A stretch of DNA of 64,000 nt. Origin: Planctomycetota bacterium. GTDB taxonomy: Bacteria > Planctomycetota > SZUA-567. The stretch covers positions 1 to 64,000 of the forward strand of contig JAISJR010000049.1 of assembly GCA_031261425.1 (NCBI GenBank), read 5' to 3'. The notes below the pieces were generated by a model that was given only the letters and a program-made list of their open reading frames with translations, ran no database searches and had not been told where the DNA came from. Shown one piece after another: positions 20,381 to 55,000 of this stretch; the stretch's first letter is position 1, and each line of letters opens with the position of its first letter. Both the position numbers and the translations under genes were made by a program.

Positions 20381-20830
20381 ATGACGGACGATAGCAAAAA
20401 ACGGCAGGCGTATTTGTCGCTATGGACGGAATTTGTGATGGCGGAAACGGGCGACGCGGCGGCGCTTGACGATTTCGCGCCGTTGCGCGGCGCCGAAGTG
20501 GTCAAATATATTATTTCGCCGGCGGGCATCGGCGGCGTGATTCTTTCGACCGAAGCCGCGACCGCGTATCAGACGCTCGCCAAAGGGATGCCGGAAGAAC
20601 TCGCGCTCGCGTCGCTCGCCGAACATTTGTGGGAAGACGGCGAAATGATTGACACGCCGGACGACCGGACGCGGCGGCGCTATTTTCAAATCGGCGACAA
20701 CGCGCAGTTCTGGGCGGAATTTGCGCGGCGGAACGACGGCAAATGGCTGATGGCGCGCAAAAGTCCGTTAGAAAAGAAAACCGTCTGGCACCGCTATCCG
20801 AACGGAAAAATCAATCTGCCGTTGGAATAA
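20381..20830 (+). CDS. Hypothetical protein
   Basis: A 149-residue soluble protein with a good GGGGAGAAATA site. I recognise no family. The first half is mixed helix and strand (VVKYIISPAGIGGVILSTEAATAYQTL). The second half is rich in charged and aromatic residues (DDRTRRRYFQIGDNAQFWAEFARRNDGKWLMARK) and ends KINLPLE. There is no signal peptide or membrane segment. It precedes the 13-G tract locus by about 90 bp. Function unknown. Confidence 0.65.
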   Translation: MTDDSKKRQAYLSLWTEFVMAETGDAAALDDFAPLRGAEVVKYIISPAGIGGVILSTEAATAYQTLAKGMPEELALASLAEHLWEDGEMIDTPDDRTRRRYFQIGDNAQFWAEFARRNDGKWLMARKSPLEKKTVWHRYPNGKINLPLE

Positions 20831-20852
20831 AGCAGTTCGTTAAAAGCCAACG

Positions 20853-21369
20853 ATGCGTGCGCGAATCAGACGAATTGACACAAATAAAAAAGTTGACCCG
20901 CGTCCGCTACTCGCGGCGTTTGATGAAATGGCAATTCACGGGGGGGGGGGGGATTTATTTGCTGACCGGCGATGCCGACAATCAATATATCAAAAGAAAT
21001 CCGGCGCGCGTGGCGGGTTATGAATTTTACGATATGGTCGCCGGCGCTCGCACACACGGCTATGTCATCACGCAAGCGGCGGCGGCAAAGTTCGCCGCTT
21101 TTCAACGTCCAATCCGAATGCAAGCGGATAGATGGAAATACGTGGTCATTAGCGAGATAGTTAAAGTGCGGATTGGCGCCGCCGCGATAATCGGGCTACA
21201 TTCATTAGCCGCTTGCTCGTTAATTTCCGAAAGAGAATCCATCGGCGGACACGGGCGGGAGTTTCACGCAATGTTGATGCGAACGTTGCCGTGGCGGAAG
21301 AGAGTCAAATACTATTTGTGGAAATTTTTGGTAAAACCGTGGTTGCCGGTGGTTACGGCACGGGCTTGA
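20853..21369 (+). pseudogene. GT25 glycosyltransferase remnant behind a 13-G tract
   Basis: From the tract on, one frame encodes IYLLTGDADNQYIKRN ... GARTHGYVITQAAAAKF ... FQRPIRMQADRWKYV. This resembles the C-terminal half of family 25 (lipooligosaccharide) glycosyltransferases. The N-terminal half with the DxD region is not visible. With 13 Gs the fragment can only start at the ATG at 20923 (MKWQFT). With 12 Gs an upstream ATG at 20853 (MRARIRRIDTNKK) would read through. This is either a decayed gene or a slippage-controlled one. Family assignment is by motif reading and moderately sure. Confidence 0.5.
20940..20952. repeat. Homopolymer tract of 13 G
   Basis: Thirteen consecutive G inside the start region of the GT25-like frame. 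Tracts this long are prone to slippage, and a change of one G alters which upstream start is in frame. Confidence 0.9.
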
Positions 21370-54989: not shown

Positions 54990-55000
54990 CCCCCCCCCCC
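54990..55000. repeat. Homopolymer tract of 11 C directly before a start codon
   Basis: Eleven C end one base before the ATG of the YihY-family gene, occupying the position of the ribosome binding site. No purine-rich site is visible. Length variation would change spacing to upstream signals. Confidence 0.9.

Follow-up and report, generated by a model that had tools for sequence, protein, structure and literature searches.

The window, i.e. the whole stretch of 64,000 nucleotides analysed here, belongs to a Planctomycetota genome (G000) of 2.62 Mb distributed over 104 contigs. A tract of exactly 13 G is located at 20940–20952 on the plus strand, embedded in CAC-G13-ATTTATTTG, this count stemming from a consensus assembly; the length of a homopolymer can be wrong by one or two bases where the assembly is a consensus or derives from MDA-amplified DNA. 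The recount agrees with an earlier note on this DNA, which had placed 13 G at these positions within a GT25-like fragment. Across the window, numbers of G-runs decay fast with length (762 runs of three, 157 of four, 22 of five and a single one of six) and then jump to 11 and 13, so that the 13-G tract does not represent the tail of an ordinary distribution; 9-G words occur 8 times versus 0.19 expected from shuffling. Directly downstream of the tract, the C-terminal part of a GT25 gene extends in an intact frame over 138 codons plus stop (20953–21369, plus strand).

Several starts precede the tract on the plus strand. From the ATG at 20853–20855, 29 codons ending in VDPRPLLAAFDEMAIH enter the tract in a frame that coincides with the ancestral GT25 frame until the tract is reached and, behind 13 G, is one base out of phase; as had been proposed, a tract length of 0 mod 3 joins it to the GT25-like frame. 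The last 16 of the codons ahead of the tract (20892–20939; VDPRPLLAAFDEMAIH in the ancestral frame) are residual GT25 codons according to the sequence and the alignment with the sister locus described below, where the stretch corresponding to this ATG lies upstream of the real start codon. A second ATG (20923–20925), 17 bases 5' of the tract, opens into the downstream frame when 13 G are present. The claim that this is the only start to do so at 13 G does not hold, however, since the frame is open back to the ATG at 20743, yielding an ORF of 208 aa (20743–21369), the upstream part of which overlaps the preceding gene in a different frame. The upstream neighbour (20381–20830, plus strand) is a 149-aa ORF of unassigned family, for which a Pfam search gave no match and whose ortholog in the sister genome is 98 % identical (dN/dS 0.23).

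The affiliation with GT25 is weakly indicated by the fragment itself, which reaches 17.5 bits (E 0.004, profile positions 144–196) against PF01755, below the cut-off of 24; it is secured by a full-length ortholog scoring 101.3 bits, so that the family assignment of the earlier note stands on the ortholog rather than on the fragment. Among 41 genomes related to that of the window, the locus was found only in one genome of the same genus (G001; BNUQ01, single-cell genome of "Planctomycetales bacterium MS499-59"), as two matching pieces with extra DNA between them; a named search for further GT25 relatives among the genome contigs likewise retrieved the sister only. Neighbours on both sides are shared and closely similar. 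The sister gene (G001:C6, locus L037) is complete, codes for 256 aa, matches PF01755 across most of the profile (101 bits) as well as solved GT25 chains (phmmer, E 1e-6 to 6e-8), and carries the LEDD motif (ALILEDDAMF) in its N-terminal half. It thus provides the full-length relative with the same tract which the earlier note had suggested looking for: 11 G followed by C are located at the same codon as the window tract and are read in frame as His-Gly-Gly-Gly-Gly-Ile. In the sister, the gene is complete on both sides of the tract; in the window it is not. Both tracts lie inside the coding region and exceed the background, where runs end at about 7, and the difference in length between the species (13 G, +1, versus 11 G plus C, in frame) shifts the frame. 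The presence of the tract at the same codon in an independent single-cell assembly demonstrates that it is real and not the assembly artefact that had been considered. A second GT25 paralog of the window genome (G000:C48) contains no tract. The sister genome was apparently obtained from a single cell of a termite gut (R. speratus), to which MS499-59 is matched by name series and completeness; being of the same genus, the window organism may also be a termite-gut bacterium.

Relative to the sister, 289 bp are missing from the window copy at a junction between 20891 and 20892 with short microhomology (AAG), comprising the ribosome-binding region, the start codon and residues 1–92, i.e. the N-terminal half including LEDD. 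This deletion accounts for the N-terminal half previously noticed to be lacking. The remnant shares 90 % DNA identity with the full-length sister gene in a continuous frame, with 26 synonymous and 17 non-synonymous differences (dN/dS 0.158); most of the divergence therefore arose while purifying selection was still acting, and the deletion took place recently. The tract does set the frame, as had been stated; this control is moot at the window locus because the catalytic half is absent at any tract length. The window locus is thus best regarded as a relic rather than a working switch, a reading already suggested before and now supported by the intact GT25 gene with its in-frame tract at the same locus of the sister. 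Ks of the remnant (20953–21369 versus L037) amounts to 0.37, compared to 0.06–0.26 in syntenic neighbours, which hints at past allele exchange at the GT25 locus.

The tract belongs to a large set. In total, 89 G-runs of at least 9 and 68 of at least 11 were found in the window genome by pattern search, compared to 64 and 46, respectively, in the sister; each of 39 further genomes from the phylum contains 0–35 runs of 11 G or more, many of these at contig ends. Run lengths in the window genome are bimodal with a second mode at 12–14 (peak at 13). Likewise, 1.17 Mb of sister DNA picked regardless of tracts contain 14085 runs of three, 47 of six, 13 of seven and 3 of eight G, followed by 16 runs at 11–23, while A-runs in the same DNA form no second hump. 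Compared by one consensus sequence per species, orthologous tracts are kept between the two genomes with differing lengths (13/11 at the window locus, 10/13, 12/14, 16/19 and 14/12). Of 21 tracts flanked on each side by 60 or more open codons, 6 keep the frame and 15 do not, with both halves of the latter still open and many retaining Pfam domains; 6 of 21 approximates the one third expected of random lengths, a pattern that fits lengths being random relative to the frame and would be unexpected in constitutive genes. Off-by-one errors in tract counts would alter only the on/off state of single genes, and not the overall argument. About 65 of the tracts in the genome look like poly-G phase variation. 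In both assemblies, long and irregular poly-G stretches are present at contig ends (L070 with 66 G, L047, L156, L157, L173 and L174). Contigs apparently tend to terminate at G-tracts or to deteriorate into them, so that the tract numbers are probably underestimates.

The functions of tract-linked genes are biased. Among 50 tract-linked ORF pieces scanned for families, 26 relate to the envelope or surface (counting methyltransferases and sulfatases as envelope being a judgement call), versus 1 of 20 control ORFs (Fisher p 0.0003), a small set taken at fixed positions of sister contigs in which the single case is a flagellin. Represented are glycosyltransferases (GT2, GT4, GT9, GT10, GT87 and PMT-type), a Kdo kinase, two acyltransferase-3 proteins, FkbM and further methyltransferases, two membrane sulfatase-fold enzymes, surface proteins (subtilase autotransporters, PATR, PMP and LRR) and sensors (MCP, histidine kinases, response regulator-HD and PAS). 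The tract set shares one design across envelope and sensory genes, genus-wide.

The tracts also share a 5' sequence context. Preceding 64 clean tracts of 11–25 G in the window genome, C occupies position -1 in 60 cases (~94 %), and RC, YRC and TTRC are found in 56, 50 and 36 (56 %) cases, respectively, whereas TTRC precedes only 1.5 % of 839 runs of G4–G6 in the same DNA. The window tract (ATTCAC) fits the looser YRC form. Paralogous spread as sole cause was rejected, as TTRC persists at 30 of 56 once similar flanks are removed (versus 1.5 %), and so was an origin at the codon level, as tracts with the context lie in all three frames and outside coding frames. Pairing of flanking inverted repeats (TTRC...GYAA) was no greater than with shuffled partners, and the few tract-less orthologs found that might show the birth of a tract were too diverged to read an insertion. 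Exact TTTRC-G10 occurs 28 times in the window genome (2 with the reversed control pattern), 7 times in the sister (3) and, summed over 390 other Planctomycetota, 9 times; among 392 genomes of the phylum, the TTRC-Gn context is thus essentially confined to the genus of the window. Tentatively, W-T-T-R-C ahead of Gn, not explained by paralogy or codon choice, might mark sites at which G-tracts are generated, copied or preserved by a process specific to this lineage, although we regard this as the less probable option. If true, the contingency loci of this genus would be seeded in a targeted way and not wherever a G-run happens to slip; the context also raises the testable question of how contingency tracts originate.

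Several individual sites complement this survey. A second long tract of the window, an 11-base homopolymer on the minus strand (54990–55000; C run on the plus strand), lacks the TTRC context and lies directly 5' of the start codon (ATG) of a BrkB/YihY-type gene, the ORF downstream (L107) matching BrkB in Pfam; it perhaps affects translation initiation of this membrane protein gene. At one sister site (L069/L237), the tract is interrupted and the TTTGC context kept. Of two homologous genes from the two genomes (L145:2071–2080 in G000 and L082:1498–1509 in G001), one carries a G tract and the other, at nearly the same place, a C tract (opposite strand), each with TTTGC on its G-strand side. A small family, CAACAAC-G13/14-CAATTGTT, has an inverted repeat around the tract (L068, L128 and L143 in G000, L091 in G001) and, on the C strand, lies at the 5' end of genes encoding exported proteins. 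Other genes for exported proteins begin with an ATG directly followed by C12–C15 (L106 in G000, L171 and L105 in G001).

Taken together, the stretch around the tract most likely represents an allele, decayed only recently, of a GT25 lipopolysaccharide-type glycosyltransferase gene that was phase-variable by means of poly-G, the locus being part of a genus-wide set (rough probability 0.84). In the intact form, as found in the sister, the G-tract is placed at codon ~110, between the N-terminal LEDD half and the C-terminal half. Slipped-strand gain or loss of one or two G would then put the C-terminal half out of frame (off), and a return to 0 mod 3, corresponding to 11 G plus C in the sister, would bring the second half back into frame (on). 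In the window genome, the 289-bp deletion subsequently took away the start codon together with the N-terminal half; only tract and tail remain, and the loss has become permanent. The sequence patterns suggest that tracts switch in living cells and play a role in surface variation. Loss of mismatch repair does not explain elevated slippage, because both genomes possess mutS (mutS1) and G000 also mutL, each scoring over cut-off, and a promoter-spacer role is unfit for those tracts deep within genes. If the proposed reading is correct, about 65 G-tracts in genes for envelope sugars, autotransporters and sensory proteins would allow stochastic surface diversification, perhaps against recognition by phages, protists or the host, and the window locus would be a clear case of a switch gene caught after its decay.

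Slippage by itself can lengthen G-runs, and the window copy is dead; the fragment could accordingly be an ordinary pseudogene with an incidental, neutrally expanded tract that was never regulatory. We consider this improbable, since in the sister the gene enclosing this tract is intact, the 68 tracts form a separate length class with strict context and preference for envelope genes, and the out-of-frame majority of the two-sided cases retains open halves and Pfam domains. Still less probable is expression of the remnant, from 20743 or 20923 at 13 G or from 20853 at 0 mod 3, to give a small, novel protein that could be switched: its frame is intact and its dN/dS low, but the LEDD half is lost, no ribosome-binding context was established at 20853 or 20923, and a low dN/dS builds up over the whole divergence and fits a recent deletion. 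Sequencing on the MiSeq uses four-colour chemistry. An origin of the long G-runs in sequencing or assembly errors (dark-cycle poly-G) is very improbable, for although several contig ends of both genomes carry junk-like poly-G of up to 66 G, the internal tracts are flanked by unique sequence, reappear at orthologous positions of an independently assembled genome and have a sequence-specific motif at their flank, and the sister was sequenced on the MiSeq according to the method paper of its single-cell series (PMC9579161).

The reading of the window locus as a decayed phase-variable allele connects it to several known systems. Phase variation by simple sequence repeats has mainly been described in host-adapted Proteobacteria and Spirochaetes, and in the open-access literature (most subscription papers falling outside this scope) no report of poly-G or simple-sequence phase variation in Planctomycetota was found. 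New here are lineage, scale and sequence context; the window locus alone is a modest, already decayed member. With the GT25 family (PF01755; solved members include 8xc8 and the GT25 domain of procollagen galactosyltransferase), the sister ortholog shares profile match and LEDD motif; it differs in a short Gly insertion added by the G-tract, which is absent from the tract-less paralog, and the window copy retains just the C-terminal 55 %. Surface sugar transferases that vary in phase through poly-G tracts are a classic case: as here, the LOS glycosyltransferases of Neisseria (lgtA/C/D/G) and the SSR loci of Neisseria, Haemophilus, Campylobacter and Helicobacter possess an intragenic G tract of ~8–15, a frame shift toggles the surface-sugar transferase, and many loci per genome are enriched in envelope functions (PMC5084427). 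In contrast to these proteobacterial loci, the present set occurs in Planctomycetota, with a shared 5' TTRC context (surveyed in genomes of this phylum), G/C and not A/T tracts expanded, mutS and mutL present, and the window copy already deleted. Within the same PVC superphylum, chlamydial pmp genes harbour poly-G tracts in autotransporter-type surface proteins, and one tract-linked ORF of the present set (L046) matches the Chlam_PMP repeat; the set described here, however, is far larger and includes glycosyltransferases, acyltransferases and sensor kinases.
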